Source: a virus. Taken from it: a DNA stretch of 40,014 bases. Both the position numbers and the translations under genes were made by a program. The notes beneath the pieces were generated by a model, which saw only the letters and a list, made by a program, of their open reading frames with translations, was not told the origin of the DNA and ran no database searches. Every line of letters begins with the position of its first letter. Within the stretch, counting starts at the first letter, position 1. The stretch is taken from positions 1-40,014 of IMG/VR virus record IMGVR_UViG_3300010885_080864. One strand, 5' to 3'. Of the stretch, positions 17,580 through 35,505 are shown in pieces.

Positions 17580-18809
17580 CTAAAATTCTTCGCTATCTTC
17601 GATTAAACCGTCATCTAATAAGTCAGATTCTATATTAGAGAATAAATCAGTACTATTAATTTCTGATTTATTCAGAGATTTTTCTCTTTTCATAGAAACC
17701 TTTCTCGCTTTTAGATCGATTGGCAATTCTGGAGGCGGAATAAAATTATAAAGACCATTTAATATAAGATTATTATCATCCTCATAATTATTCACTGTTG
17801 CAGACATGTGTATGATACAACCTATGTCAAAATTATATTTTTTATTTAAATCTTTAATTCTTTTTTGTACTTCTTCCCATTTGTCAGGAAATATTGTAAT
17901 ATAGCATTGGTTACTATATATATCTTCGATAACGGCTTTAACCATCGCTTTGCCGTAATATTTGCTTTCTTGTTTTTTAACTTTTAATTCAATGAAATTT
18001 TTTATTTCGCCTTTAACTGATTTTACCTTGTCTTTATTATTCATTTTTTTAATTTTTAAAATAGGAGTAGTGTTAGGATCATTAAAAAAATCAGGGTAAA
18101 TATTGTGCTTCTTATAAGTAAAACTTTCTCCCAAATAATGCAGCTCTAAAGAATACGATTCTTTTGGCGACCAATTTTCATTTTCTGTCCAAGGATACTC
18201 AAATATTTCCTTGGTAGCATCATGTTTTTTCATCCATGTTTGAAGTTTTTTTCTGAAATCTTGACAATAATAAAAAATAAGTTTTCTACTAATCCCAAAA
18301 TCATCAAAACAGCCCACGGAAGCCAGAGCCTGTATTGTATTGGCTCGTACTTTTCTGCTATCAACTTTTGCCATAAAATCAAAAAATGAATTAAATGGTC
18401 TTTTAGATATAATATCTTCAATAGCATCATTTGACACAAACTTTAGCGCACTTAAACCGGTTAAAAGTTTATTATTATCAATAAGTTTATAATGAAGATC
18501 AGACTTATTAATATTTGGCGGAAGAATTTTTACCTTGTATTTCTTGATTTCTTTTTTAATCTTTTCAATGTTAGCCGGTGCATCCGGAGTATTTGATTTT
18601 AGTTCTTCAATTAAATTCGCCATAAGAAATTCAATTGGAAAATGCGCTTTTAGATAAGCAGTTTGATAGCTAATCATGGAGTAAAGAATGGAGTGTGAAT
18701 TAGATGTTAACATTCCGTTAGATAAATAATATTGATGATCTGGGTGATCTACCTCTAAATCATATGTTTGTTGCGAACCAATTAATTTAACTGACTTAAT
18801 ATTTGACAT
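17580..18809 (-). CDS. dnaE: DNA polymerase III alpha, C-terminal half, preceded by split-intein C fragment
   Basis: Residues 1-37 are an intein C-terminal fragment ending LTSN. Residue 38 onward (SHSILYSMISYQTAYLKAHF) continues the DnaE sequence exactly where the gene at 18927-21632 leaves off. The 372-residue extein contains the end of the fingers region and tandem helix-hairpin-helix motifs (LKFVSNDAIEDIISKRPF, ANTIQALASVGCFDDFG). An OB-fold region follows, ending in an acidic tail. STDLF near the end could act as a clamp-binding motif. The start ATG 18809 has AGAGG as Shine-Dalgarno inside a small palindrome. The product must be joined to the N-half to give a full polymerase of about 1166 aa. 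Confidence 0.92.
   Translation of the reverse strand: MSNIKSVKLIGSQQTYDLEVDHPDHQYYLSNGMLTSNSHSILYSMISYQTAYLKAHFPIEFLMANLIEELKSNTPDAPANIEKIKKEIKKYKVKILPPNINKSDLHYKLIDNNKLLTGLSALKFVSNDAIEDIISKRPFNSFFDFMAKVDSRKVRANTIQALASVGCFDDFGISRKLIFYYCQDFRKKLQTWMKKHDATKEIFEYPWTENENWSPKESYSLELHYLGESFTYKKHNIYPDFFNDPNTTPILKIKKMNNKDKVKSVKGEIKNFIELKVKKQESKYYGKAMVKAVIEDIYSNQCYITIFPDKWEEVQKRIKDLNKKYNFDIGCIIHMSATVNNYEDDNNLILNGLYNFIPPPELPIDLKARKVSMKREKSLNKSEINSTDLFSNIESDLLDDGLIEDSEEF
18699..18809 (-). other. Split intein, C-terminal fragment (Int-C, 37 aa)
   Basis: The fragment runs from the start codon to Asn37. Block F is visible as TYDLEVDHPDHQYYLSNG and block G as MLTSN before the +1 Ser of the extein. The final Asn cyclises to release the intein. 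The usual penultimate His is Ser here. Splicing would leave GYGFNK joined to SHSILYS, the uninterrupted DnaE sequence. Confidence 0.9.
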
Positions 18810-21729: not shown

Positions 21730-22371
21730 TTAATTTGTTATAAAAGTTTTATACTGATTACTAGACATTAAATTATTTGATTTAAATATAAAATCAATAT
21801 TTTTTAATTTTTCTTTCCAAAAATCTTTATTTATTGATTTGATAAGTAATAATTTTTTAATATCTTTATATTTTAGCTTTTTACGCTTATACAACGTGTG
21901 TGCTATAAGCTGCACATCTTCCCAGTATTTATCAAGCTGGGCATGAGTGTCTTTAAATATTTTATTTTTAAGCTCGCGGCGCGCTGCGCCCGCACTAGCC
22001 AATTTATTTCGTGTGATTATATCTGAAATAATTGAAATATCAGACCATGAACCATTTTTTAATGTATTTGGAAATTTGTCTGATCCTGTCATTTTTTTAT
22101 AATAAATTTTTTCGGCGGTCAGCCCGCCATAAAATACAGAAATTTCAGATAATAAAATTTTTTTATGTAGTGCCTCATCCTCTAAATCATAATCAGCTAA
22201 GTTATAATAAGTAAGCCCGCTAACATTAGCGGGCTTAATTATGATCGATGGGACTTGCATATTATTTAATAATGCAGTTATGGCGTGACCACTTTCATGG
22301 TATATCAAAGCAATCATCTCATATTGATGAGACATTTTCTTTATTGTCACAGAATAATTCGCCTGATTCAT
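21730..22371 (-). CDS. Stand-alone FtsH-type M41 metallopeptidase
   Basis: HESGHA at residues 25-30 is the HExxH zinc site, and NGSWSDISIIS (Asp111) sits where FtsH has its third zinc ligand. SVFYGGLTAEKIYY matches the FtsH segment (L.GGR.AEE). The C-terminal helices match the rest of an M41 domain. At 213 aa it has only the peptidase domain, with no AAA ATPase and no membrane helix. In FtsH the ATPase feeds substrates into the protease, so here the partner is missing. It might cleave unfolded or tagged proteins alone, or borrow a host ring. Three short genes lead from trigger factor to it with gaps of 1-14 bases. Confidence 0.85.
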   Translation of the reverse strand: MNQANYSVTIKKMSHQYEMIALIYHESGHAITALLNNMQVPSIIIKPANVSGLTYYNLADYDLEDEALHKKILLSEISVFYGGLTAEKIYYKKMTGSDKFPNTLKNGSWSDISIISDIITRNKLASAGAARRELKNKIFKDTHAQLDKYWEDVQLIAHTLYKRKKLKYKDIKKLLLIKSINKDFWKEKLKNIDFIFKSNNLMSSNQYKTFITN

Positions 22372-22373
22372 AA

Positions 22374-22652
22374 CTACCCCAGGTTTAATAGAATATTATC
22401 AAACTCCTCAATATATTTCTGACATTCTTTAATTTTGCATTTTAATTGTAAATTATCAGATCCGAAAGCCCCAGTCACTATTAACTGTGGGCTTTCAATA
22501 TATAGAATATTGACGTCCGTAAAATGTTTAAGTTCCGTAAAACCATGAATCACAAATAATTTTAAAAAATCTTTATGTAGTATTTTATCTAATTTATATA
22601 CGTGAGAACTAGATCCACAACATGATTTTACAGAATTATTTTTAAAATTCAT
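22374..22652 (-). CDS. Unknown 92-aa protein
   Basis: A small protein with two adjacent cysteines near the start (SCCGSSSHVYKL). Its core reads HGFTELKHFTDVNILYIESP and LIVTGAFGSDNLQLKC, ending in an amphipathic helix. It looks like a compact alpha/beta fold. Two bases separate it from the M41 peptidase and one base from the gene upstream, so it is co-expressed with both. No family is recognised. Confidence 0.75.
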   Translation of the reverse strand: MNFKNNSVKSCCGSSSHVYKLDKILHKDFLKLFVIHGFTELKHFTDVNILYIESPQLIVTGAFGSDNLQLKCKIKECQKYIEEFDNILLNLG

Positions 22653-22653
22653 T

Positions 22654-22953
22654 TCATTCGGATGTTCCGCCGAAGTTCTCGCCCTTGGTTTCGAGAAGCC
22701 ATAAGCAATATCTTATTTTTGCCATTTGAGCTGATTTTGCCTCACGATATGGCGCCGAAAGTTCTTTAATAAGATCTTTTGCCCCATTTAATTTGTGGTC
22801 ATCTTCTTTTTCTTTATCAATAGTATAAACGTTAGCTTCCGACTGATAAATAGTATTTTTTAATTCTTCCTTACTAAGGCTATTTGCATCATCAGCAAAT
22901 CCTGTTGGTAATTTTTTTAAAATTTTATCCGGAAATGAATTTTCATCTGTCAT
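22654..22953 (-). CDS. Unknown 99-aa helical protein
   Basis: A charged, helical protein (LPTGFADDANSLSKEELK, then AKIRYCLWLLETKG). I chose the start at 22953 (MTDENS) because AGGAGAG lies just before it. An in-frame ATG at 22971 would overlap trigger factor by 4 bases. It has no recognised family. Its place between trigger factor and two further genes leading to the M41 peptidase puts it in a protein-quality operon. Confidence 0.75.
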   Translation of the reverse strand: MTDENSFPDKILKKLPTGFADDANSLSKEELKNTIYQSEANVYTIDKEKEDDHKLNGAKDLIKELSAPYREAKSAQMAKIRYCLWLLETKGENFGGTSE

Positions 22954-22967
22954 AATTTCTCTCCTAT

Positions 22968-24215
22968 TCACTCAACAATTGTGCTTGAGTTAATTATAAA
23001 TTGCATTGTGTGCTCATCACGAGCACGATTAATTAATACTTGTAAATAACCACCTGAATTTAAATCTTTTAAAGATTCTTCAACAGATTTTTTAAGGTCT
23101 GCCTTAGACAAATTATTTTTAATAATTTGAACGACCTCTTCGTCGCTTAATTGACAATCAGGCTCCTCTTCTCTTATTTTTTCAAGAATCAAAGATAATT
23201 TAACATTCTTTGCTCCAGCGTCAAGTAGCGACTGTTTATTTGCTTCAGTAAGAGAATTCCAGTCACCCTTATTAGACGAGCAAAGATATTGCGCTTCTTG
23301 CAAAGAAAGCCAAGATGGTACATCTATATTAGAACCCTCCAGAAGAATGCCTGTAATATTTTCTATTTTTTTAACAAGTAAAGAATCTTCATATCTTTTA
23401 GATGCCGCCATATTAATTTTAGATGTCAAATCATCAATATTTTCTGATGCAAATTTTTGAGCCAACTCATCATTAAGTGCGTGAGGAACAGTTTTAGATC
23501 CGGAGTTTAAAGTAACAACAAATCTTACTACCTTGCCTTTTATAATTGATACTGCATTCTCTGGTACAGAGAAATTAAATTCTCTAACTTCACCAAGCTT
23601 CATGCCTATTAGATTATTATCAAATTCTGATAATGATGTCTTGCCTACAAGTATAATATCTCCTTGAGCGCAAGCCTCTTTAATCATAACGTCTCCATCA
23701 AAGCAATCATAATCAATAATAATATTATCTCCTAATTGAACAATATCATCACTAGTAAATTGTTCTGATGTTCCGGCATTTTCCCTAAGTTCCTGCATCA
23801 TTTTTGCAGCAATAATTTCTGGCGTTTCATCAATATGAGGTTTAGGTATTTCAAAACCTTTATATTTTCCTAAATCAAAATTTGGTTTTGTATAAAGTGT
23901 AAATTCGCATTTGAAAGAACCATCAGTAATATTTAAAGAAGTAAACTGCGGTGACACTACTGGCTTAACATTTTTTTGAAATAGAGTCTCATGGAAGCAC
24001 GCCTCTGCCATTGCACGTTTAACTGATTCGCTAATTTGGTTTCTATAATGGAACTTAATAGATTCCAGAGAGGCTTTGTTTTTCCTGTTTCCTGGAACAG
24101 GCGCACGCTTAAAAGCGTCTAGTACCTCTGTTGTCTTGGCATCTAATTCTTCTTTAGAAGAAGAGCATATAACATTAAGCTTACAATATTCTATTTCGTT
24201 TGTTTGAATTTCCAT
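22968..24215 (-). CDS. tig: Trigger factor (ribosome-associated chaperone, PPIase)
   Basis: The N-terminal ribosome-binding domain holds AFKRAPVPGNRKNKASLESI (residues 34-53), matching the signature ..VPGFRKGK.P. here altered to PGNRKNKA. An FKBP-type peptidyl-prolyl isomerase domain follows at about 150-245 (VQLGDNIIIDYDCFDGDVMI, SEFDNNLIGMKLGEVREFNF). A helical chaperone domain forms the rest (DELAQKFASENIDDL). At 415 aa it is close to the bacterial length of about 430. Trigger factor meets nascent chains at the ribosome exit by docking on protein uL23. It has a strong Shine-Dalgarno (AAGGAGAT). Finding it in a phage is unusual. Confidence 0.93.
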   Translation of the reverse strand: MEIQTNEIEYCKLNVICSSSKEELDAKTTEVLDAFKRAPVPGNRKNKASLESIKFHYRNQISESVKRAMAEACFHETLFQKNVKPVVSPQFTSLNITDGSFKCEFTLYTKPNFDLGKYKGFEIPKPHIDETPEIIAAKMMQELRENAGTSEQFTSDDIVQLGDNIIIDYDCFDGDVMIKEACAQGDIILVGKTSLSEFDNNLIGMKLGEVREFNFSVPENAVSIIKGKVVRFVVTLNSGSKTVPHALNDELAQKFASENIDDLTSKINMAASKRYEDSLLVKKIENITGILLEGSNIDVPSWLSLQEAQYLCSSNKGDWNSLTEANKQSLLDAGAKNVKLSLILEKIREEEPDCQLSDEEVVQIIKNNLSKADLKKSVEESLKDLNSGGYLQVLINRARDEHTMQFIINSSTIVE

Positions 24216-24251
24216 TTTATCTCCTTTTAATTTCTTTTTTTATAATAAAAA

Positions 24252-25064
24252 TTACCAATTAGTTTCGCCAAAAAAATTATTTTTATAATTGCTTTTATCT
24301 TTAGATGTGCGCCTGAGCCCCTCTTCGCATCGCTCAAGATGATCGCAATATTTACAAAGAGGAGATGGCGATGCTAAAAATTGATCTTCTTTTAAGATTT
24401 TTTCAGCATAATCTATATATTTTTGTTTTATTTTTAAAATATCTTCTTTTTCAAATTCTTCAGTAATATACTCAAAATCATGCCTTAGCATGATATAGCT
24501 TGTCCTGACTTTTGTCAATGACGGATCTTCGCTAATCATAACAAACGCATACGTTAACAGCTGGAAGAAATCATTTACAAGATATTTTTTATCTTTTGTG
24601 CTCTTATAGTCAGCCACATGCACAACACCGTCTTTGTCTATTTGAACTCTATCTATAGCGCCATTAAGAGTAATGGTGTCGCTTATTGGCAGATTGAACC
24701 TTTTCTCAACCCCAGTTATATTATCTAGCCCTGATTTATATATCTTTTTAAGATAGCTATGTATTATTTTTTTGCAATCCTCTACGGATTGAGGAGACAT
24801 TTTATCACCATACTCTGCTACTGCTGTTTTATAAGCAATAGACATTTCTTTATTGAAAGGCTGAGTGCTGCCATTCATATAAGCAATATGAAACTCCTCT
24901 AAAACTTTGTGACAAAAAGTTCCAAAAATATGAAAATCCCAAGTTTTTCTTGGGAATTTCTCTATATAAGTAAATTTATATTGCTTTTTGCAATTTAAAA
25001 AAGTTTTAGTTTTAGACACACTTAGCTTTATAAGCTGGTCGGCACTTATTAATTTTTCTGTCAT
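24252..25064 (-). CDS. RecB/Cas4-like PD-(D/E)XK exonuclease with Fe-S cysteines
   Basis: The active site is visible as GAIDRVQI followed by VVHVADYKSTKD, the D...(D/E)xK nuclease motif. HKVLEEFH near residue 52 gives the upstream His. Cys25 (FLNCKKQYKF) and three cysteines near the end (CKYCDHLERC) match the four ligands of the iron-sulfur cluster in Cas4, AddB and related nucleases. No cas1 or CRISPR array is present, so a role in DNA recombination or degradation alongside SbcCD and RecA is more likely than one in CRISPR adaptation. The upstream TTGATATAGAGG box may be its promoter. Confidence 0.88.
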   Translation of the reverse strand: MTEKLISADQLIKLSVSKTKTFLNCKKQYKFTYIEKFPRKTWDFHIFGTFCHKVLEEFHIAYMNGSTQPFNKEMSIAYKTAVAEYGDKMSPQSVEDCKKIIHSYLKKIYKSGLDNITGVEKRFNLPISDTITLNGAIDRVQIDKDGVVHVADYKSTKDKKYLVNDFFQLLTYAFVMISEDPSLTKVRTSYIMLRHDFEYITEEFEKEDILKIKQKYIDYAEKILKEDQFLASPSPLCKYCDHLERCEEGLRRTSKDKSNYKNNFFGETNW

Positions 25065-25126
25065 TTTTTTTGCACTTAACGTTTAATTGTACAGTGCCTC
25101 TATATCAAGGGACGCAAATAATAATA

Positions 25127-26134
25127 TTAAAATAAAATTCTTCTTTTCCATAAAACCCAATTAAATACAAATCCGGCAGTATTAGTGTCTCTGCCATTAA
25201 CCATGCCTGAAAAATTGCCAGGATCTTTATTGGTTGGCTGGTAAGGTTGAGTACTGATTATCCATGATAATGATACACGGTCAAAATAATAATAAGTAAT
25301 ATTTTTTGTTCTTGGATTGTAATGACTTCTTAAGAAACTGCCAGTGGTAGTTTGGTTTTCTAATCCAGTATTCAGGAAATATGCGCCGTCTCTAACAGTC
25401 TCTGGATTTATATTAGTATAATACATCTTATTGATTACTGGCGGCTTTGCAGGATCGTCATTAACGTAATCTTGAAAAATTATAAAAGATTTTGGATTAA
25501 AATATTTATTATTAACATCTGATGTCTCTGGCGGAGGGGTTGGCACTTCTATTGTTACATTACCAGGTAAATTGCCAATCCCTCTGCCAGATTCGCCTTG
25601 TGAGTTTGTAGTAGAATATATTATATTATAATTTTTTGAATTAAATTCTAAATTTGTAAAATTATTAGGGCTTTGGTACCCATCAAAACCATTTGATATT
25701 TGCGGCAATTCTGGGTCGTCTACTATAATTCCTAAATTTCCTGGAGGTCCAGTAAATATTACGTTTGACTGATTATAATCTGAGCCAAATGGAAATTTAG
25801 AATTTGTTGCTACAACATCGTTTGGTTGCTGATTAGTATCGCCTCTATAATATCTTATGTCATTTGTTAAAGCAGGCTCATATATGTTAGTAATAATAGG
25901 AGAAGTGTCAATTCCATTTGTAGCAAAAACTTTTAGAATAATTTCTACATTATTTGAAGGTAGTCTGGATAATAAAATTTTATCAATATAAATTGTAGAG
26001 TCAATAGTTGGGTCGCTACCATCTAAAGTATAAAATATTGCGCTAGGTATATTTGCGGAAATATTAACAAATCTAGGTACCCCAGAAACAATTTGCTCTT
26101 CTGAATCTATTATTGATATATTAATAACTGACAT
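25127..26134 (-). CDS. Virion-like protein with chitobiase-type (CHB_HEX_C) domain
   Basis: Residues about 28-85 contain AIFYTLDGSDPTIDSTIYI and a following beta strand pattern ending in FATNGIDTS. This is the signature of the C-terminal Ig-like domain of chitobiase, which occurs in many surface and phage tail proteins. The remaining 250 residues are rich in Asn, Pro, Gly and Tyr, as in tail fibre or neck-decoration proteins. They contain IYEPALTNDIRYYRGDTNQQ and end in FVFNWVLWKRRILF. A role in virion attachment is inferred. The gene is isolated between the RecB-like nuclease and small unknown genes, rather than inside a tail operon. Confidence 0.8.
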   Translation of the reverse strand: MSVINISIIDSEEQIVSGVPRFVNISANIPSAIFYTLDGSDPTIDSTIYIDKILLSRLPSNNVEIILKVFATNGIDTSPIITNIYEPALTNDIRYYRGDTNQQPNDVVATNSKFPFGSDYNQSNVIFTGPPGNLGIIVDDPELPQISNGFDGYQSPNNFTNLEFNSKNYNIIYSTTNSQGESGRGIGNLPGNVTIEVPTPPPETSDVNNKYFNPKSFIIFQDYVNDDPAKPPVINKMYYTNINPETVRDGAYFLNTGLENQTTTGSFLRSHYNPRTKNITYYYFDRVSLSWIISTQPYQPTNKDPGNFSGMVNGRDTNTAGFVFNWVLWKRRILF

Positions 26135-26177
26135 GTGAAATCTTTTATACTAAATAATAGTATGTTAAAATAATAGT

Positions 26178-26492
26178 TTAAACAATATTTAAAAATTTTA
26201 AATTTTTTTCAGTTATTTTTTTCTTTAATGATATTCTATATATTTTATGAGCTATTTTCCTGAAACTATAGGCAATTTCTAGATATTGCTCTTTATTTTC
26301 GGATCTGTAAGCAGCTAAAAATTTATCATAATAATTTAATAATTCAATATGAGGCAACATTACTTTATTATTGCCTTCACGTATATTTATTAATATATTT
26401 AAACAATAGGCTACGAGAAAACGGTTAAATTTTTCTTGACCCATTTTATTATATTTATCAATAATTTCTTTCTTTAATAGAACATTACTCAT
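26178..26492 (-). CDS. Unknown 104-aa basic protein
   Basis: A small, lysine-rich helical protein (KEIIDKYNKMGQEKFNRFLV, HKIYRISLKKKITEKNLKFL). The upstream spacer is very AT-rich, with a TATAAT-like box. No family is recognised. It lies between the virion-like gene and dNMP kinase. Confidence 0.7.
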   Translation of the reverse strand: MSNVLLKKEIIDKYNKMGQEKFNRFLVAYCLNILINIREGNNKVMLPHIELLNYYDKFLAAYRSENKEQYLEIAYSFRKIAHKIYRISLKKKITEKNLKFLNIV

Positions 26493-26519
26493 ATATTATA
26501 TGCTATATTATAGTTTTAA

Positions 26520-27116
26520 TTATGTAAATTTTTTATATAAAAAAGGTATTATAGTATTAATATTATTTTTAAGATTTTCAATAGATCCATTATTATCTAT
26601 AATAGAATCAAATTGATCATTTTTTATTCCGTCCTGATCTGTCTCTGTATTATGATTTAATTTAAGAGAAGACTCTCTAATTATTTTAATAAAATAAAAA
26701 TTCTCTTGTTTTAAAAATTTAAGTTCATTTAGTCGGCGAGTATCTGAAACAATTACTGTTTCTATTCCATCATGTCCTGAAAATGAGTTTATCTTTAATA
26801 AGACTTCATTTAATTTTTCAACCCATATATCAGGATTATAACTCCTGCCAAGCTCTCCTAGATCAATTAAGCTATCTCTATATGTTAATGGCTTTCCATT
26901 TTTAAATGCTTTTGGTATAATATGGCTCCTAAGATTTGATGGACCAAACAAACATTCTTTATTTGCTTCCGTAAACATTGTTAGCACCATTTCTTTGATA
27001 GGATCGGCAAATGCGATTGACCTGTAATGCCGAGATATGTTAGATCCTAACATATTAGCCACTGTATTTTTACCGCTGTTTGCCTTGCCAACCAAAGCTA
27101 TCTTGTATTTTAACAT
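26520..27116 (-). CDS. Deoxynucleoside monophosphate kinase, T4 gp1-like
   Basis: The P-loop is ALVGKANSGKNTVANML. The segments IAFADPIKEMVLTMF, TYRDSLIDLGELGRSYNPDI and VIVSDTRRLNELKFLK match phage dNMP kinases. These enzymes phosphorylate dNMPs to supply dNTPs for replication and are common in large phages. I chose ATG 27116 because it overlaps the sbcC stop as TAATG and has GGAG at a good distance. A TTG two codons earlier is possible. The protein is 198 aa. It is co-transcribed with sbcC and sbcD. Confidence 0.88.
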   Translation of the reverse strand: MLKYKIALVGKANSGKNTVANMLGSNISRHYRSIAFADPIKEMVLTMFTEANKECLFGPSNLRSHIIPKAFKNGKPLTYRDSLIDLGELGRSYNPDIWVEKLNEVLLKINSFSGHDGIETVIVSDTRRLNELKFLKQENFYFIKIIRESSLKLNHNTETDQDGIKNDQFDSIIDNNGSIENLKNNINTIIPFLYKKFT

Positions 27117-29323
27117 TACCAACTCTCCACTACTTTAGCTCGTGAAGTACCATTAATATCTTGCTCTACTAAAATGCCATTATTAAATTTTTGTTTCATT
27201 CTATCATTGTGAGTTATCACAAGAATAGTAAAATCTTTTTGAAAAAATTTAATTATATCATATAGTGCATCAATCCCAGCCTTATCTAATGGCTGATCTA
27301 TTTCATCTAATAATAGTATTTTTATATCAGCACCCATAGTCTTTTGTAAAAGAAATGACAGCCCAAGTTTTAAACTAAAAGTTACAATAATTTTCATCGC
27401 GCCTGATAGCTGCTCATAATCCCTTTGTTTACCATTTAGTAGGTACTGAATATCTAGGGTATCATCTTGTGTGCCGTCATTTTTTGTCTTCTCAATAGCA
27501 AAAGACAGTTGTAACCCTGGTCTTAATTGAGATAAAAGGTTATTTGTTTCCACCTGCAAATCATCTAACATATTTTGTATTATTACTGCCGGTATTCCGT
27601 AAGATCCAAAAGAATCTATTACTAAAGGATAAATCGATAATTTTTCCACAAGAGAATTATTTTCTTTTAATAATTCATTTGATTTTTGCATATCATTATT
27701 TTTTTGCTCTAATATATGCGAGTGTACCGATTTGTCATTAGTTAATTTTGCAATAGATAATGATATTTGATCAATTTCAAATTGATAATTTTTTTTATCA
27801 CTAAGCATTTTGATAAGAGATACATCAAGTTCTTTTAGCTCAGTATCATTTTGATTATTTAATAATTTTTTATTTTCTAGTAAAATTATTTCATTATCTT
27901 CTAATGATTTTTTATAAGACATAATATTTCTATTGTAATCATCATAAATAGATTTATTCTCTATAAATTTTTCTTCAAAAGATTTTAAATCACTATTTAT
28001 TTTTAATAATAATTTTATATTATTTTCAATTACGCTTATATTTTGTATTGACTCATCACATTTTTGTTTTAAAGACTTATTATCTTCATTTATTTTTTTA
28101 TTTTGAGTAGAAAGAGTCTCAATTTCTAATTGAATTTCTGATTTACATTTTTCTGTATGATCTTTATTTAGTTCTTGCTTGCAATGTTTGCAACTTGCTA
28201 ATGAATCATTAATTGTAAAGAATTTTAATTGATTATTTAATTCATTGATTTTATCTATATTATTTTTAATAATAAAATTATTATTTAATAATATTTTTTT
28301 ATTTTCTTCTAAAGAAGACTTAATGTCATCTAATTTATCAAAATTAGATATATTTATTTTTTCTTTATTTTCTTTTAGAGATTTCAGTTCATTAACTATT
28401 TCTTTTGATTGTGATGCAATTTTAGACTTTTTAGCCGTTAATGATTCAATTGAATTTTTTAACCCAACAATAATTTCAGAGATTGATTTTATTGTTTTTA
28501 TAGTAGATGACTGGTCACTCCTGATTGAATTAATTTTTAAATTAATTATGTTATAGTCAGTATTATTTTTTTCTAATTTAATCTTTAAATTAGATAAGTT
28601 TTTATCGCCTTCTATAATAAAAGAATTTAATTCATTTAATCTATCGTTAATGATAGTAATTTCTTTTTCACAGTCTCCTAGAGTCTCTATAATTATTTTA
28701 TTTTTATCAAATTTTTTTGAAATAGAATTATATTTATCTTTTGCGATCTTTTCTAATTTTGAGTAAACTGATAGTTGAAGTGCCTCTTTTAATATTTGCT
28801 TTCTTTTTTCTGGCGTAGCAGTTGTTAGTCCGGACATATCATTCTGCGCAAAATGAACCGTACTTATAAAAGATTTATAATTTAATTTAATTAAATTATT
28901 AATATCTTTTTCTGTATCTATGGCTCTCCTGCTGGTCTTATTGTCCCATAACAAATTATCAGTATCAAAAATATGAGCGTTATCTGATTCTACTGAATTT
29001 CTCTCATAAAATGATAAATCAGATATAGATGATTTTTTTGTTCTTGATCTAGTTATCCTATAAGTTTTATTATCTATAAAAAAATCAAAAATAATTTTGC
29101 AAAAATTACTATCTTCTTTAATTATTTTTTCTAAATTTGCATTTGAATGATTAAATAAAACATATTCAATTGCTTTGAAAATAGTAGTCTTGCCAACTCC
29201 ATTAGAGTACAAGTCATTGCCTTCTACTTTTCCAATAATAACGGCAGAGTTAAAAGACGTGAAATCTATCTCGCTCTTTTCATAGCACATAAAATTTTCA
29301 ATAAATAATTTAATTGGTTTCAA
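27116..29323 (-). CDS. sbcC: SbcC/Rad50-like recombination ATPase (T4 gp46-like)
   Basis: Walker A is visible in LYSNGVGKTTIFKAIEYVLF, and Walker B in ILLLDEIDQPLDKAG. SGAMKIIVTFSLKLGL matches the ABC signature region. Between the two ends lies about 400 residues of coiled coil, broken by a zinc hook CKHC at 378-381. The two ATP-binding halves and hook make a Rad50-type machine that with SbcD processes DNA ends and hairpins. At 735 aa it is shorter than bacterial SbcC (about 1050) and nearer the length of T4 gp46. Two bases separate it from sbcD. Confidence 0.93.
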   Translation of the reverse strand: MKPIKLFIENFMCYEKSEIDFTSFNSAVIIGKVEGNDLYSNGVGKTTIFKAIEYVLFNHSNANLEKIIKEDSNFCKIIFDFFIDNKTYRITRSRTKKSSISDLSFYERNSVESDNAHIFDTDNLLWDNKTSRRAIDTEKDINNLIKLNYKSFISTVHFAQNDMSGLTTATPEKRKQILKEALQLSVYSKLEKIAKDKYNSISKKFDKNKIIIETLGDCEKEITIINDRLNELNSFIIEGDKNLSNLKIKLEKNNTDYNIINLKINSIRSDQSSTIKTIKSISEIIVGLKNSIESLTAKKSKIASQSKEIVNELKSLKENKEKINISNFDKLDDIKSSLEENKKILLNNNFIIKNNIDKINELNNQLKFFTINDSLASCKHCKQELNKDHTEKCKSEIQLEIETLSTQNKKINEDNKSLKQKCDESIQNISVIENNIKLLLKINSDLKSFEEKFIENKSIYDDYNRNIMSYKKSLEDNEIILLENKKLLNNQNDTELKELDVSLIKMLSDKKNYQFEIDQISLSIAKLTNDKSVHSHILEQKNNDMQKSNELLKENNSLVEKLSIYPLVIDSFGSYGIPAVIIQNMLDDLQVETNNLLSQLRPGLQLSFAIEKTKNDGTQDDTLDIQYLLNGKQRDYEQLSGAMKIIVTFSLKLGLSFLLQKTMGADIKILLLDEIDQPLDKAGIDALYDIIKFFQKDFTILVITHNDRMKQKFNNGILVEQDINGTSRAKVVESW

Positions 29324-29325
29324 GA

Positions 29326-30504
29326 TTAATCCTTAACTTCATTTTTAAATTCTGAATAAACTTCGGAAGCCAATTCTATAAATATGTTTCTATTTTTTTC
29401 TTCAATAAAAGTATCAGAATATAGTTTAATAGCCGACATTTCTGTGACAGATTTAAATATATCCTGCCCTTCTTTTTTTATAAAATTAATTTTTTTATTT
29501 TCTGAAAAATTAGAAATATTAAATACTCCCTTATCATATAGGCATTTTTCTATTATTTTTTTATCTATCGATAATAGATCTGCCGAAGACAGTGAGACCT
29601 CTAATTTAATTATTGATTTATTAAAATCTTTTATTTCAGATAATTTATCAATTACATAAGCTGTTGTATTTTCCGTATCTTTTGGAACTACAATTGTTAT
29701 TTTCTTTAGGTTTCTTGTTGGTATTTTTTTTGTTAAAAAATGACCGTCATTATATATGATGATATTTTTTTCTTGCTCAGTCTCGCCATAATTAGAAATG
29801 TCCATACTTCCTATATGCGCAATGTGAGGCTTGTCGCACATAACCTGGGGCTTGTGAACATGACCCATCCATACATAGTCATATCCTGCAAACATGTCTA
29901 GCGGGCACATTAATTCATTAGCCATGTCATCTATTTCATCGCCCATAGGTATAGACCCCTCAAGACATAAATGACCAACAACTATTTTTTTATATGTCAA
30001 AGGTATTGATGACAATTCATAATTTATGATATCTCTTAATAATATAATAGCGTCAGAATTATTTTGACAATTAAATGATTTTCTATCTCTGAAAGGAATT
30101 AAAGTAAAAGCTGAATTATTTATAAATAAAGTATCAATGTTTTTATAAACATTAATATTCTCTATCTCTGCTTCAGAAATAATATCCAGTGGAGATGTAT
30201 AAAAATTTCCAGATCTTAAGATATCATGATTACCAATGATAATATGAACTTTAATATTATTTGATTGGCATTTTTTCGCCCAAGAAATAAATAAAGATAT
30301 TAAATGTGGCGCTGGCTTAGGATCCTCAAAAACATCTCCTGTCACTATAATATCAGATACATTTTCATCAATTGCTTGCTCTAAAGTCCAATCTAATAAA
30401 TTGATCTGGTCAACTGTCCTGCTATTTAGTGATGCTCCTATGCCAATCTTTCCCAAAGATTGGGAGGCTCCTAAATGCGGATCGCCAAGAATTAAAATTG
30501 ACAT
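29326..30504 (-). CDS. sbcD: SbcD/Mre11-like nuclease (T4 gp47-like)
   Basis: The metallophosphoesterase motifs appear in order: GDPHLG, GDVFEDP, GNHD, a GHLCLEG segment, and GHVHKP. These bind two metal ions and cut DNA. The C-terminal 120 residues form the capping and SbcC-binding region. At 392 aa it is a normal length. The start overlaps the end of the primase zinc-domain gene by 13 bases, and the stop is two bases from sbcC, so nuclease and ATPase are made from one message. Confidence 0.93.
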   Translation of the reverse strand: MSILILGDPHLGASQSLGKIGIGASLNSRTVDQINLLDWTLEQAIDENVSDIIVTGDVFEDPKPAPHLISLFISWAKKCQSNNIKVHIIIGNHDILRSGNFYTSPLDIISEAEIENINVYKNIDTLFINNSAFTLIPFRDRKSFNCQNNSDAIILLRDIINYELSSIPLTYKKIVVGHLCLEGSIPMGDEIDDMANELMCPLDMFAGYDYVWMGHVHKPQVMCDKPHIAHIGSMDISNYGETEQEKNIIIYNDGHFLTKKIPTRNLKKITIVVPKDTENTTAYVIDKLSEIKDFNKSIIKLEVSLSSADLLSIDKKIIEKCLYDKGVFNISNFSENKKINFIKKEGQDIFKSVTEMSAIKLYSDTFIEEKNRNIFIELASEVYSEFKNEVKD

Positions 30505-31115
30505 AATATTTCGTCTATCCTATCTTTAATTTTTAAGATTGTGCTTTTTAATGCTTTAACATCTAAATCATATTTATTATTTAGTTTATCAAAAACATAA
30601 GTAGTATCTTCTATTTTATCAAGAGCCTCTTTATTATTTTTATAATATATAATTTTTTCATGAATAAAAAAAGAAAAATCAATTAATAATTGATTTTTCT
30701 CTAATTGAAAGTTATTGTTAATATTAACAATGTTTTGTATTTCTTCGGACCCAAATGATTCTATTATTTTGGTCGCTGCTTTTATCCTACCAATGTTTTC
30801 TATGTTTGATACAAAGTCAACTGGCAAGGTGCCTATTTTACATCCAAAACAATAAAATGAATTTGTTTCCGGATAAAAATAAAAAGATGGGCTACTTTCT
30901 CTTCCGCTTTTATGATTTAAAAATGGGCAAACGCATTTTCTATTATCAATATTTATATTATATAAATTGAATATTTTCAATAAATCTATTGAATTGGCTT
31001 CATTTATTAAATTCTTGTTATCTGAGATGCCTGAAGTAATTGATTGAGAATCTCCATCTTCCCACTGTATTTCGCCGTAGCCAGAGTGTCTTTTTCCATT
31101 TGATAGTAAGCACAT
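30492..31115 (-). CDS. DnaG-type zinc-binding domain protein (primase zinc subunit)
   Basis: The segment CPFLNHKSGRESSPSFYFYP, continuing to FYCFGCKIG, is the CHC2 zinc domain of DnaG: Cys63, His68, Cys89 and Cys92 are the expected ligands. The preceding SIDLLKIFNLYNI matches the first helix of the family. No catalytic TOPRIM domain is present; that lies in a separate gene at 10621-11382. In DnaG this domain reads template sequence and starts primers. The 38-residue N-terminal extension contains SGYGEIQWEDGDS, close to the SSB N-terminus YGEISWDDEVS. Only ATG 31115 gives a complete extension. Most of the extension overlaps a 59-aa ORF in another frame. Confidence 0.85.
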   Translation of the reverse strand: MCLLSNGKRHSGYGEIQWEDGDSQSITSGISDNKNLINEANSIDLLKIFNLYNINIDNRKCVCPFLNHKSGRESSPSFYFYPETNSFYCFGCKIGTLPVDFVSNIENIGRIKAATKIIESFGSEEIQNIVNINNNFQLEKNQLLIDFSFFIHEKIIYYKNNKEALDKIEDTTYVFDKLNNKYDLDVKALKSTILKIKDRIDEILCQF

Positions 31116-31186
31116 AATTGCGAATACTCCGAATACTTTTCTTTTTCTTTAGAAATTAATTCCAATATTAAATCTCTGTCTATCAT
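31007..31186 (-). CDS. Small helical ORF overlapping the primase zinc-domain gene
   Basis: Starting at ATG 31186, four bases after the upstream stop, this frame encodes 59 aa: MIDRDLILELISKEKEKYSE, then helical sequence with KYSGKMEILNQLLQ, ending ITRI and TAA. AAGGCGAG lies about 10 bases before the start. Its last 109 bases overlap the start of the primase zinc-domain gene in a different frame. Both frames look coding, since the other carries YGEIQWED. The composition is that of a small phage helical protein. It is not recognised. Confidence 0.55.
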   Translation of the reverse strand: MIDRDLILELISKEKEKYSEYSQLCAYYQMEKDTLATAKYSGKMEILNQLLQASQITRI

Positions 31187-31189
31187 AGA

Positions 31190-31666
31190 TTATACACTCG
31201 CCTTGTCTTTGGCAATAGCTTCGAGCTTTTCTTCAAGAAGTAAAATTCTTGATTCCAATTGTACGTAATTAAAATCTAAATTATTAATCCTATCTCTTTG
31301 AATAAGGCATGCTTTTAATAGAAGCGCCACTAATCCAGTGGCTCCCATAGACTCTTTTTCATTTTCGTCTTCATTCATTTCAATACATAATTTTATTAGA
31401 GATTCTAAAATATCTCTTTCTACATCTAATTGAAATACGTTTTTGTTTTTGACTAGAGATTTATCATCTAATATTTTCCTAAAATTTGATGATAATTCAG
31501 CTGCCCTCAAAGCATATTCTGCCGATTTGCCCTGCATATCAGAAATATTTTTTTCAAAATCTTGCTGAGAGACGTCATTTTTTTTTATAAAAATAGATTT
31601 ATCATTATTTATTTTTAAAGATTTTTTATTTGGCGCTTGCTGAGACTCTTCTTCATCGAAAGGCAT
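31190..31666 (-). CDS. Unknown coiled-coil-like protein
   Basis: I chose ATG 31666 (MPFDEEES), preceded by AAGGAT, which leaves a 10-base gap to the upstream gene. A start at 31741 would overlap that gene. The 158-aa protein is helical, with RDILESLIKLCIEMNEDENE and a C-terminal heptad-like stretch (YVQLESRILLLEEKLEAIAK). No family is recognised. A role as a structural or adaptor protein is possible. Confidence 0.75.
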   Translation of the reverse strand: MPFDEEESQQAPNKKSLKINNDKSIFIKKNDVSQQDFEKNISDMQGKSAEYALRAAELSSNFRKILDDKSLVKNKNVFQLDVERDILESLIKLCIEMNEDENEKESMGATGLVALLLKACLIQRDRINNLDFNYVQLESRILLLEEKLEAIAKDKASV

Positions 31667-31676
31667 GATTTTATCC

Positions 31677-32090
31677 TTATTTACCCTGAATAAATATGGC
31701 TGGCTTTTCCGAAACGTAAGATTCTGATTTAGATTCCGCATGTTTTACAATAATGTATTTATCTTGTTTCTCAACAATATAAGATGATGATATTGCATTT
31801 TCTAATGCTGGAAGAAACCCCGCTACACCAGATGTCAAATATAATTCCTTTTCATTTAAAGGAATGACTTTACAATGCATGTGTACTTTTTGATTTGGCA
31901 GAGAATATAAATTTAAATCTAGATTTTTTATTTCTTCCCATATATTATGGGTAGGTGACGATGCCACTGCTGATAATTCAGTTACTTTACCCGCTGACAT
32001 TACTAATGGGCTAAAATTTTTAGTCTCATCAGTAGTAGCAGTAGAATTAGTTTTAGGATCAACATTTTTTTCCATTTTATTATCTCTCAT
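31677..32090 (-). CDS. Unknown 137-aa protein
   Basis: A small protein with a disordered N-terminus (KNVDPKTNSTATTDETK), then an alpha/beta region (QKVHMHCKVIPLNEKELYL, YIIVKHAESKSESYV). The start may instead be 32075 (MEKNVD), which has GAGAG at a better distance. Upstream lies the 16-base promoter-like box shared with the bS21 gene. No family is recognised. Confidence 0.7.
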   Translation of the reverse strand: MRDNKMEKNVDPKTNSTATTDETKNFSPLVMSAGKVTELSAVASSPTHNIWEEIKNLDLNLYSLPNQKVHMHCKVIPLNEKELYLTSGVAGFLPALENAISSSYIVEKQDKYIIVKHAESKSESYVSEKPAIFIQGK

Positions 32091-32124
32091 TTCTTTCTTT
32101 TTATGTTTGTATGAAAACGCGTAT

Positions 32125-32140
32125 AATCAATATATATCAG
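32125..32140 (-). promoter_or_regulatory. Candidate promoter box CTGATATATATTGATT
   Basis: The minus strand reads CTGATATATATTGATT 35 bases before ATG 32090. The same 16 bases recur exactly before the bS21 gene at 35542-35557. TGATATATA resembles an extended -10 element. It overlaps the end of the thioredoxin-like gene and lies beside an inverted repeat (TCAGACATATATCTGA). Confidence 0.55.
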
Positions 32141-32423
32141 ATATATGTCTGATCATTTCATTGCGACTTACAATATTTTTTAATCTTAATTTTTCTTTTT
32201 TGTTTTTAAAAAATAAAATTGTTGGAATTGATTGTAAATCATATATTTTAATATATTCTTTAAATTTTTCTATATTTATAAAATAAATATTTATATTTTT
32301 AATTTCTAAAAAAATAGATTTTATTTTTTTATGAATAAAATTATCATTTATATAAAAATATAAAATACAGTTGTCAATTTTTAAATCTTTAAAATCACCA
32401 AGAAATATTATTTCCCGTGACAT
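32127..32423 (-). CDS. Thioredoxin-fold protein without CxxC
   Basis: The segment LQSIPTILFFKNKKEKLRL is the conserved cis-proline strand-turn of thioredoxins. The preceding helix and strand order (ILYFYINDNFIHKKIKSIFL) fits the fold. The place where CxxC should sit (near residues 26-30) has no cysteine pair, so redox activity is unlikely. It may act as a binding or structural protein, as do other inactive thioredoxin-like phage proteins. It is 98 aa. Its start overlaps the end of the peptide deformylase gene by 16 bases. Confidence 0.7.
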   Translation of the reverse strand: MSREIIFLGDFKDLKIDNCILYFYINDNFIHKKIKSIFLEIKNINIYFINIEKFKEYIKIYDLQSIPTILFFKNKKEKLRLKNIVSRNEMIRHISDIY

Positions 32424-32929
32424 TTTTTATACTTAAATCCACTATTGCATGGACATTTTTCGTTTGGCTTTACTTTATCAAAAGTAATTTTATTTGCGAC
32501 TTCTCTTTCGTAGAAAACTATGCCATTAAGATGATCTAGTTCATGCTGTATTGCTACTGCTAATAAGCCAGTGGCAGTAAAAGTATGAGGGTAGCATAAA
32601 TTATTACCAACAACTATTTCATTATATCTTTTTGTTTTTAAAATTTTGTCAGGAAATGATAAACATCCCTCGCCATCAAAAATAATTTCATCATATGATT
32701 TAATGATTTTAGCGTTTATAAGATCAATTGATATATTTCCTAGTCTTATAATTGCTACATGCTTGTATTTTCCGCATTGAGGGGCAGCAAGACCTATTCC
32801 TGGGCTTCCGAGTTTAGCCGAACTATTTAATTCATCTTCTAAAGATTTGATTATTAAATCAGCTTCTTCTAAAGAAGAAATCTGTTCGCATTTTATTTTT
32901 AAAGAATCAATATTGTTAATAATAATCAT
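32408..32929 (-). CDS. def: Peptide deformylase with C-terminal SEC-C zinc motif
   Basis: All three deformylase motifs are present: GIGLAAPQ (44-51), EGCLS (87-91) and HELDH (129-133), so Cys89 and two His can bind the catalytic metal. The enzyme removes formyl from new proteins at the ribosome exit. The C-terminus PNEKCPCNSGFKYKKCHGK is a SEC-C motif, the zinc element found at the end of SecA and of some other proteins. Here it may hold the enzyme to the ribosome or to a partner. I chose ATG 32929 (173 aa), one base after the upstream stop, over the longer in-frame start at 32962. Confidence 0.93.
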   Translation of the reverse strand: MIIINNIDSLKIKCEQISSLEEADLIIKSLEDELNSSAKLGSPGIGLAAPQCGKYKHVAIIRLGNISIDLINAKIIKSYDEIIFDGEGCLSFPDKILKTKRYNEIVVGNNLCYPHTFTATGLLAVAIQHELDHLNGIVFYEREVANKITFDKVKPNEKCPCNSGFKYKKCHGK

Positions 32930-32930
32930 A

Positions 32931-33143
32931 TTATTTACCGCACCTATTGCATCTGGCACCATCTATTTTTGTTGCGTCAGCAGTTATAATTAATAAATTT
33001 TTTAAACAAATACAACATTTTTTTTGATTTGTCGAGCAAGTATCACATATTATGTGCTGCTTATAAGATAATGATCCCGAACAGCCAAGGCAATATTTAT
33101 TCGCTGGGGTGAGCGCTAATTTTTTACAATTTAAACATATCAT
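32931..33143 (-). CDS. Small Cys-rich zinc-finger protein
   Basis: A 70-aa protein with at least five CxxC pairs (CLNC, CLGC, CDTC, CCICL, CNRC), enough to bind two or three zinc ions. It is one base upstream of the deformylase gene and is probably translated with it. Its start shares a short AT-rich promoter region with the divergent plus-strand gene at 33174. No specific family is recognised. Confidence 0.75.
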   Translation of the reverse strand: MICLNCKKLALTPANKYCLGCSGSLSYKQHIICDTCSTNQKKCCICLKNLLIITADATKIDGARCNRCGK

Positions 33144-33173
33144 ATATAATTACTTATATTTTAGTATATTGAT

Positions 33174-33341
33174 ATGGACTTCTCTAACGATTTTTTTAAA
33201 TTCATTAAAGAGAAAGAATCAACAAATAATTACGAACAATTGCAGGCGGAATTAGAAATTCCTGTAAAAATAGAAATTATTAAAAATAAAGAAAACGAAA
33301 GTGAGTATAAAGAAGAAATGATAATAATTCAGATTACCTAG
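33174..33341 (+). CDS. Small plus-strand protein of 55 aa
   Basis: One of only two supported genes on the plus strand. It encodes MDFSNDFFKFIKEKESTNNY followed by a charged stretch, ending IIQIT and TAG. No Shine-Dalgarno is visible. A TATAAT about 25 bases upstream suggests a short or absent leader. Its end overlaps the convergent HNH gene by 8 bases. It is too short to place in a family, but it fills the space between divergent and convergent neighbours, which supports it being real. Confidence 0.55.
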   Translation: MDFSNDFFKFIKEKESTNNYEQLQAELEIPVKIEIIKNKENESEYKEEMIIIQIT

Positions 33342-33846
33342 GAATGTAGTCTTTCCAATCTTCATGCCAGCAACCATTTAATTTATCTTCAAAATAATCA
33401 ATAAAAGAAAAATTTGGCTTTTCTGGTTTTTTCAATAATGGCATATTGGACTCTTCCGGAGTCCTATTGCCTTTATTATTATTACAATTAAAGCAACTAA
33501 CAACTACGTTAGTATAATTACTTTTACCGCCTCTAGAAATAGGAATAATGTGATCAAGCGTCAAATTCTTTCCAGTAATTAATTTGTTACAATACTGACA
33601 GATACTTTTATCTCTTAGTACAAGATTATATTTGCTGTATATTGGATTATGAATATATCTTTTAATATATTTTTTTAATTTTAAAATAGATGGTATTTTA
33701 AATTCTCCGCCAGAATATGTAATTCCTTGTTGCCAATTAGATATGACGTCTACTTTATTTTTAAAATATAGTTTTAAAGCCCTTTTTTCAGTTATAAAGT
33801 TTAATGGCTCATAATTAAAATTTATTAATAATACAAATTTAGACAT
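33334..33846 (-). CDS. HNH endonuclease
   Basis: The N-terminus LLINFNYEPLNFITEKRALK is typical of one large HNH family. CQYCNKLI is the first zinc pair. LDHIIPISRGGKSNYTNVVV gives the catalytic DH and the central Asn. CFNCNNNKGNRTPEE closes the ββα-metal fold. At 170 aa it is a normal length. Such genes act as homing or DNA-processing nucleases in phages, and some work with the packaging machinery. It is not next to any terminase here. Confidence 0.9.
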   Translation of the reverse strand: MSKFVLLINFNYEPLNFITEKRALKLYFKNKVDVISNWQQGITYSGGEFKIPSILKLKKYIKRYIHNPIYSKYNLVLRDKSICQYCNKLITGKNLTLDHIIPISRGGKSNYTNVVVSCFNCNNNKGNRTPEESNMPLLKKPEKPNFSFIDYFEDKLNGCWHEDWKDYIPR

Positions 33847-33853
33847 GGCACAA

Positions 33854-34495
33854 TCATTTAATTATTATGATCGGTAACTCTAGTAACTTGGACTCACTAT
33901 TAACTTTAATTTCTTGAATTCCTTCAAGCTTAGAGTTTGATAGCGGCTCATTTTTTCTTATTATTATCTTGTAATTGCCAGGAGGCAATTGAGCTTGGTA
34001 TTTACCAACTGAATTAGTTTTTACTTTGCATACTTGCACGGAATTTTCATTTAAAACTTCTACTTCAGCCAGAAATAAAGATTTTCCATTTTTATCTACG
34101 ACTCTCTGTACTATAGGTATTTTCCTATCTGAATTATAAGTTTCTGGAGATACTGTTTTATTATTTTCTTTTGTTTCAAAATCAAAAATATCTGAGGAAG
34201 ATCTAGATGTTCTCCTTGTTCCCGAAGGGGCTTTATCTTCTTCAATATTAAATTCGCTATTAATAAAAATTTCTTCTTTTTGAGGAGATAGTAAAGAAAC
34301 GGTAGGCAATAAATTATTTTTATTTATTTCATCTAAATTGTTTGGATGATTATCATCATTACCTATATCAATCAGCGACTGCAATTTATTTGCAACTATT
34401 TTCATGGTTAAATCATTAGAGCTAATTAAACCAACTATCTGATCTAATTTTTTTTCTATTGATAATAGAATATCGGAGGCTTTTCTTGATTCCAT
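33854..34495 (-). CDS. Unknown protein with carboxypeptidase-regulatory-like domain
   Basis: The C-terminal 75 residues (VVDKNGKSLFLAEVEVLN, KTNSVGKYQAQLPPGNYKII) form a carboxypeptidase regulatory-like beta sandwich, used in many surface and phage decoration proteins. The N-terminal part is helical, and the middle is Ser/Glu-rich and probably disordered. It is 213 aa. It sits two bases from the next acidic gene. A virion surface role is inferred only from the domain type. Confidence 0.75.
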   Translation of the reverse strand: MESRKASDILLSIEKKLDQIVGLISSNDLTMKIVANKLQSLIDIGNDDNHPNNLDEINKNNLLPTVSLLSPQKEEIFINSEFNIEEDKAPSGTRRTSRSSSDIFDFETKENNKTVSPETYNSDRKIPIVQRVVDKNGKSLFLAEVEVLNENSVQVCKVKTNSVGKYQAQLPPGNYKIIIRKNEPLSNSKLEGIQEIKVNSESKLLELPIIIIK

Positions 34496-34497
34496 GA

Positions 34498-35124
34498 TTA
34501 CTCCAAAAACACTCCAACTTTAATATTTAATCGTCTATAAACTTTTATAGCTTCTGCCTGAATTAATTTATTAAATTTGGGATGAGTTCCAAAAATTAAA
34601 CTTTCTACTTGAAATTGAATATCCTCAAAAGAAGATATACTTATAATGTCATTATCAACAATTAAAATACATCTGTCGCTATCATCTTCTTTTAAGTCTA
34701 CAGAATCATCGCCGTCGTCGGCTAGAGAATCAGTGTCATTTAGTTCGTCATAACTGGCATCATCACCCTGTGATGAATCATCATCTGTGTCAGATGTGAC
34801 AGTTTCACTAGGATCATTTGATTCGTAATTATCTTCTTGAATATTTGTTTCTGCCGTATAAAATTCTATTTCAGAATTATATGGATCAACATAATCTTTA
34901 TTATTTTGCATTTTGTTACTTGTAAATAGTTGAGGTAATGTGTTATTACTACTTACTATTTTATCTAATTTAGTATTAATATTCTTTTTAGAATTAGGTA
35001 TTACAATGACTTTGCTTTCCGAGAAATTATTAGGTATAATCCCATATTTTTTATATTCTGGAACATATCTATTTTTTTTAATTTCTTGCTTATTCCTTTT
35101 TGGATTTTTTAAAACATCACTCAT
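34498..35124 (-). CDS. Unknown acidic protein
   Basis: The N-terminus is basic (NPKRNKQEIKKNRYVPEYKK). The middle is strongly acidic (DPSETVTSDTDDDSSQGD, DDGDDSVDLKEDDSD). The last 60 residues form an alpha/beta part (RCILIVDNDIISISSF, KLIQAEAIKVYRRLNIKV). It is 208 aa. The opposing charges suggest a protein-binding linker. No family is recognised. Confidence 0.7.
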   Translation of the reverse strand: MSDVLKNPKRNKQEIKKNRYVPEYKKYGIIPNNFSESKVIVIPNSKKNINTKLDKIVSSNNTLPQLFTSNKMQNNKDYVDPYNSEIEFYTAETNIQEDNYESNDPSETVTSDTDDDSSQGDDASYDELNDTDSLADDGDDSVDLKEDDSDRCILIVDNDIISISSFEDIQFQVESLIFGTHPKFNKLIQAEAIKVYRRLNIKVGVFLE

Positions 35125-35145
35125 TGTAATACCTTAATTACCTAA

Positions 35146-35505
35146 TTACTCTTTTGTTTGCTCTTGATCGCGATCTCTTTTTTTGCTTTTAAATTCTTTA
35201 TTATCAAACTCTAAAGATTTTCGCTGTGATTCATTATTTTTTCTGCGCTTTTTATCAGATGGCTTTTCATACCTCTGCTTCTCTTTATATAGAGAGAGAA
35301 TTCTGTCTTTTTGGACGAGGGCTCTAAAAGCCTTCATAGCTCTGTCAAAATTATTTTGAACTTGAACTTGAATTGGAACAGATTGTACAGCTTGAATATA
35401 ATCAAACTTTGTTCCGACGCTATCTTGTACTAAATCACCCCCTCTCGAAATAGCTCTAGATTGTTTTTCATTCTTATTTTTAATATCATCATCCATGTCT
35501 GTCAA
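35146..35505 (-). CDS. rpsU: Ribosomal protein bS21 homologue with extensions
   Basis: Residues about 42-95 match bS21: PIQVQVQNNFDRAMKAFRAL, then a helix ending YEKPSDKKRRKN. This corresponds to the bS21 pattern of an early strand, F---L--FKR, and YEKP---RK followed by basic residues. bS21 binds the 30S platform near the mRNA start site, so a phage copy could favour phage messages. It has about 40 extra N-terminal residues and a longer charged C-terminus than bacterial bS21. The start is either TTG 35505, four bases after GAGG, or ATG 35496. Confidence 0.85.
   Translation of the reverse strand: MTDMDDDIKNKNEKQSRAISRGGDLVQDSVGTKFDYIQAVQSVPIQVQVQNNFDRAMKAFRALVQKDRILSLYKEKQRYEKPSDKKRRKNNESQRKSLEFDNKEFKSKKRDRDQEQTKE

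Follow-up and report, generated by a model that had tools for sequence, protein, structure and literature searches.

A trigger factor (TF) predicted to be complete in all three domains is encoded by the virus fragment analyzed here (IMG/VR record IMGVR_UViG_3300010885_080864, 40,014 bases; this whole stretch is called the window below). It belongs to a set of translation and protein-folding genes that is fixed, beyond chance, in one deeply diverged lineage of huge phages. With a probability of roughly 0.55, we read these genes as a clade-wide translation/folding kit that is kept within the replication/recombination block of that lineage.

The window is mainly a replication and recombination region, and its minus strand holds nearly all of the genes (Table 1). 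The replication content comprises DnaE (DNA polymerase III alpha), SbcC/SbcD-like proteins, a DnaG zinc-ribbon primase part, RecA, a Toprim primase part, RuvC and a PD-(D/E)XK nuclease. The assignments of topoisomerase I and of a single-strand-binding protein come from sequence and position alone, and the latter protein has no Pfam match. The DNA primase appears to be split, with its CHC2 zinc-ribbon and DNAG_N/Toprim genes (10621–11382 and 30492–31115) lying ~19 kb apart. A tRNA search of all 40,014 bases found none, and Shine-Dalgarno motifs precede 14 of 43 starts, compared with a background of 8%. Interleaved with the replication and recombination genes, scattered along the same strand and not forming one operon, are the genes for TF, peptide deformylase (PDF), bS21, DnaJ, an M41 peptidase and a CCA-type head protein. 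All six match Pfam, each with its main domain above the cut-off. The first-pass annotation had listed these six under the coordinates 22968–35505; all are present, but only TF, PDF and bS21 lie in that interval, with M41, DnaJ and the CCA-type protein outside it.

Table 1 Features of the window discussed in the text
Feature	Position	Strand	Basis or remark
CCA-type nucleotidyltransferase head, 251 aa, no neck/body/tail	1179–1934	-	PolyA_pol head, 43.6 bits
DnaJ, class-A layout	11718–12686	-	J domain 62.9 bits, DnaJ_C 71.8 bits, both above cut-off
DnaE, N part with intein N half	18927–21632	-	Constant downstream neighbor of the TF operon
Stand-alone M41 (FtsH-type) peptidase domain	21730–22371	-	33.9 bits (cut-off 29.9)
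p92, conserved neighbor with near-invariant cysteines	22374–22652	-	Sequence comparison
p105, conserved TF neighbor	22654–22971	-	Start overlaps TF stop by 4 nt
Trigger factor, 415 aa	22968–24215	-	Pfam; sequence match to PDB TFs; AlphaFold model with Foldseek/VIA
PD-(D/E)XK nuclease	24252–25064	-	Constant upstream neighbor of TF
Thioredoxin-like protein, 98 aa	32127–32423	-	Thioredoxin 22.1 bits, below cut-off 23.5; overlaps end of PDF gene
Peptide deformylase with C-terminal SEC-C tail CPCNSGFKYKKCHG	32408–32962	-	Sequence, Pfam
bS21 ribosomal protein, extended at the N terminus (~45 aa) and at the C terminus	35146–35505	-	Pfam; directly downstream of topoisomerase I

The trigger factor and its docking loop

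The ribosome-binding domain (residues 1–113), the PPIase/FKBP arm (152–243) and the C-terminal chaperone domain are all present and follow one another in TF order. Trigger_N matches at 57 bits (cut-off 22.2), Trigger_C reaches 19.8 bits, just below its cut-off of 22.7, and a sequence search ties the protein to solved TFs in the PDB. The AlphaFold model (mean pLDDT 88.9, pTM 0.65) retrieved E. coli TF (1w26) in Foldseek at an E value of 7e-22 and the ribosome-bound form (2vrh) with a TM score of 0.76; VIA aligned it with 1w26 over its whole length (Z 20.9 across 403 residues). By these model-based comparisons, the window protein is a full three-domain trigger factor with a predicted fold like that of ribosome-bound E. 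coli TF. Among the viral structures of BFVD, no full-length TF match was obtained at E ≤ 0.001, and PHROGs gave one matching family, phrog_26774 (7.8e-19), annotated as of unknown function.

Relatives were gathered by alignment-based scans, since single-sequence scans with TF, DnaE and TopA gave nothing; the TF scan returned 39 viral loci. The docking loop reads GFRxGK in most relatives, and the window has VPGNRKNKAS where GFRxGKxP is expected. Relative to the signature GFRxGxxP, the window's GNRKNKAS keeps the arginine and the first glycine, with the phenylalanine, the second glycine and the proline changed. Two of these changes, F44N and G47N (E. coli numbering), may weaken ribosome docking, and F44N recurs in the near-identical pair L023/L030. 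The residue equivalent to E. coli F44 (position 43) is F in 35, N in two (the window and L023) and Y in one of the 38 core TFs, a set from which the near-copy L030 was dropped. Within this core set R44 never varies and K47 hardly does, and the docking-loop arginine is kept in 43/43 aligned phage TFs. With a mean entropy of 0.57 versus 1.53 for its domain, the loop stands out in these alignments as among the best-kept parts of TF across deep divergence. Two basic residues beside it, K54 and K/R58, are phage-specific additions.

Because one TF search pattern included the docking loop, the survey was redone with DnaE. TF again lay upstream of DnaE in 16 loci with the loop arginine kept, including loops beyond the reach of the TF pattern (GFRKGR, GYRKGK, GFREGK, GFRPGH and GFRAGK), which rules out that loop conservation is an artefact of the search pattern. 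In the same survey, the TF of one locus (L077) is split across two frames, and no TF was seen in L076, L082 and L084.

Within the PPIase arm, several bacterial-consensus residues are gone (F217 and, in the IPGF stretch, P196/G197 among them) and others are kept; the arm is shortened in some relatives (L034, L036 and L038). Bacterial-consensus columns are retained to a similar mean degree in the PPIase arm (63%) and the ribosome-binding domain (61%), and we therefore make no claim of faster PPIase decay overall.

The 38 core phage TFs form a single branch apart from bacterial TFs (SH-aLRT 100). When deeper phage TFs are added, just two label changes are needed, one of them from the long-branched L045, and the tree therefore suggests a single old acquisition. 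One record of 371,675 bases (G044) has two TFs; the second, TF-like protein (L247) is encoded ~93 kb upstream of the DnaE-adjacent copy, and its docking loop is replaced by LPPHPKGSVP. INPHARED records of named phages also gave TF matches, which we set aside as bacterial contamination after inspecting those fetched: ClpP/ClpX-like motifs lie directly downstream of TF in L001, L002, L003 and L006, four of the six records L001–L006, and an annotated Acinetobacter record has a tig-clpP-clpX locus. Several named 'phage' records with such bacterial loci, L253 (CAKLQF020000005.1) and those among L001–L006, thus look like host contamination of the phage collection.

Deformylase, bS21, DnaJ and two weaker members

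The deformylase domain scores 88.4 bits in Pfam, and its catalytic motifs GxGLAAxQ, EGCLS and HExDH are all found, as GIGLAAPQ, EGCLS and HELDH. Its tail is a SEC-C motif (23.3 bits, cut-off 20.4), which ends 23/26 deformylases of the clade. Cyanophage and vibriophage PDFs belong to the same deformylase family; among the matches listed, however, those to named phages end before the tail (query residues to ~150), whereas the window lineage has it. In E. coli PDF, a C-terminal helix binds L22 near the tunnel exit, and PDF and TF are able to occupy one ribosome together (PMC8712518). The phage enzyme has SEC-C where the E. coli enzyme has this ribosome-binding helix, and the SEC-C-bearing tail of SecA binds 70S ribosomes (PMC6620043); by this analogy, we infer that SEC-C would tether the phage PDF to the ribosome. 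A literature search found no paper linking phage, deformylase and SEC-C. A phage outside the lineage (LR745206.1, L252; 634,780 bases) also encodes a SEC-C-tailed deformylase, and no TF was found in it.

The Ribosomal_S21 core of the phage bS21 (residues 46–96) scores 52.2 bits (cut-off 27) and has a basic C-terminal helix, and the core stretch YEKPSDKKRRK is kept in relatives. In DnaJ, the HPD motif and the zinc-finger cysteines can be read in the sequence, with the zinc-finger model at 24.2 bits, below its cut-off of 32.7. Phage DnaJ proteins have been predicted to recruit host HSP70 (PMC7824862; PMC12619734). A search for HSP70/DnaK in 30 relative records found none, which argues against a phage-encoded DnaK as partner and points to host DnaK in that role.

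The M41 and CCA-type proteins fit a 'ribosome set' only weakly, because the former is missing from deeper branches and the latter is a head domain only. The M41 domain retains the HExxH motif (H25, E26 and H29) and the distal zinc-ligand aspartate D111, none of which varies in 15 sequences, and lacks the AAA ATPase domain that, with M41, makes up FtsH; the first-pass description as a stand-alone M41 peptidase holds. The gene, between those for p92 and DnaE, is confined to the nearer part of the clade. CCA enzymes carry an EDxxR templating motif, in place of which the window protein has ENNNR. Of the CCA-type tRNA enzyme first proposed at position 1179, the PolyA_pol head is thus confirmed, but the tRNA-binding body and EDxxR are absent, and a CCA-adding function is therefore not secured. 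Five relatives (G002, G005, G008, G010 and G014) encode a second, full-length PolyA_pol/CCA enzyme (415–425 aa) beside the short head protein.

Conservation of the set and its replication-gene surroundings

Each of the 20 TF-bearing records that are 100 kb or longer encodes PDF and bS21 (16 were retrieved by the TF scan, the other four by the DnaE scan and not by TF; ten are 350–481 kb long), and DnaJ and the PolyA_pol head occur in all 16 such records tested. The order bS21-PDF-TF-DnaJ-CCA, on a single strand and spanning 25–77 kb, is identical in 20/20 records compared, a set that includes four records below 100 kb and omits the four from the DnaE scan. The records are possibly fragments. 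Two pairs, L007/L008 and L023/L030, are nearly identical, which leaves ~19 independent records among the 20 that reach 100 kb. TF, PDF, bS21 and DnaJ are kept in the large records of the lineage down to a DnaE identity of ~37%; among the more distant DnaE relatives of 100 kb or longer, TF is found in 0/5, bS21 in 0/5 and PDF in 1/5. The co-occurrence analysis that the first-pass annotation had called for is thus positive, and it is the presence of PDF and bS21 in all 20 large relatives, together with the unvarying order, that places the association beyond chance.

These genes are passed on together with the replication block in which they sit, and their shared retention may thus be a matter of descent. 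It is possible, if doubtful, that each gene brings an independent benefit and that co-occurrence stems only from a long replication block inherited whole, with no joint ribosome programme. The order of the adjoining replication genes is kept equally well, many other genes separate the translation genes, deeper branches lack M41, and the out-of-lineage 635-kb phage encodes a SEC-C deformylase but no TF. On the other hand, TF, PDF, bS21 and DnaJ all bear on the synthesis and maturation of new proteins, and across the range of DnaE divergence given above TF, PDF and bS21 were never lost in the 20 large records (DnaJ in 16).

The genes for p105 and p92 follow TF in nearly all relatives; p92 has a confidently predicted structure (pLDDT 91.6), and a search of the PDB with it gave no match at E ≤ 0.001. 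In essentially all relatives, TF lies directly upstream of DnaE and beside the PD-(D/E)XK nuclease. The window's DnaE comes in two pieces (17580–18809 and the N part in Table 1) of split-intein appearance. In the N piece, GYGFNK is followed by an intein N half that closes the piece; the C piece opens with an intein C half ending LTSN|SHSILYSM. DnaE of relatives is either unsplit (~1170–1240 aa) or split.

Given this position beside DnaE, TF and DnaJ could conceivably serve as chaperones of the replication machinery (DnaE, the split-intein halves, RecA and primase), with the docking loop simply inherited and PDF and bS21 acquired separately. DnaJ lies beside RuvC, single-strand-binding protein and primase genes, and host DnaJ/DnaK take part in lambda and P1 replication. 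We nevertheless consider this explanation unlikely: the neighborhood is a general replication block, so that adjacency says little about function, and the retention of the docking loop among the best-kept parts of TF would be unexpected if ribosome binding were unused.

Proposed working and comparison with known systems

Under the favored reading of a translation/folding kit, the phage TF would dock on uL23 at the host tunnel exit through its conserved loop and cradle nascent phage chains, and the SEC-C-tethered deformylase would strip formyl groups at that same exit. The phage bS21, joining the 30S subunit close to the anti-Shine-Dalgarno site, would bias initiation, and DnaJ would pass clients to host DnaK. 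Ribosome binding, its timing, a preference for phage chains and cooperation between the proteins are what we infer here. The earlier suggestion of a strategy for re-tuning host ribosomes is plausible, with the proteins presumed to act jointly: the clade-fixed combination, the kept TF loop, the deformylase motifs with SEC-C and the intact bS21 speak for it, but the patchy M41, the head-only CCA-type protein and the potential for shared descent do not.

When N-terminally complete TF is overproduced in E. coli, growth suffers and protein content falls to 64.7%, and bacteria almost never keep a second complete, ribosome-binding TF (PMC11559001). A second complete TF could therefore be a burden; for the phage copy, expression must be tuned or the overdose effect put to use. 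The latter option would make TF a host shut-down factor, extra copies filling the tunnel exit, holding host proteins and lowering host output. Those E. coli data and the retained N-terminal domain agree with such an effect; phage proteins would be hit too, however, and the chaperone domain is retained as well, which makes it improbable that shut-down is what TF is for. Returning to the kit, we tentatively suggest that phage TF and SEC-C PDF displace their host counterparts on ribosomes carrying phage bS21, which would then be phage-specialized from initiation to folding. If true, such ribosomes would break the rule that a cell has a single ribosome-binding TF.

The translation factors known from phages concern mainly initiation, tRNAs and elongation, and a complete, clade-wide TF adds a nascent-chain chaperone step. 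The set suggests that viruses carrying it take charge of how their own proteins are made and folded. Viral takeover of the ribosome exit tunnel becomes testable, ~40 diverged natural TF variants are supplied for docking-loop studies, and phage TF is a natural exception to the dosage rule reported for bacteria (PMC11559001).

In comparison with bacterial TF (tig; E. coli 1w26/2vrh), the whole-length three-domain fold, the GxR docking loop and the chaperone arms are shared. Identity in the structural alignment is 17%, however, and phage TFs form a separate branch, with PPIase residues lost, the arm shortened in some, extra basic residues near the loop and, in the window, F44N. Gene context differs as well, phage TF adjoining DnaE and bacterial tig adjoining clpP-clpX. 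One virus survey states that no TF was detected (PMC8407431), and no report of a phage TF was found in a literature search of incomplete coverage. The first-pass view that known parts are combined here is right for PDF, bS21, DnaJ and CCA (PMC7162821, PMC9723584, PMC7824862) but seems not to extend to TF. Huge phages are known to carry bS21, PDF and a CCA-adding enzyme, and redirection of host translation was proposed for them (Al-Shayeb et al. 2020, PMC7162821); as far as the available text of that work goes, TF is not among its translation genes, whereas the window lineage has five genes in fixed order in one block. Bacteroidetes phages with bS21 likewise combine it with folding chaperones and a protease, leading to the idea of ribosome takeover (Chen et al. 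2022, PMC9723584); a term search of that paper gave no TF, PDF or DnaJ. Their bS21 is expressed late with structural genes, whereas that of the window lies beside topoisomerase I in the replication block. Set against these systems, TF is the new element, and the rest of the set extends a known theme.
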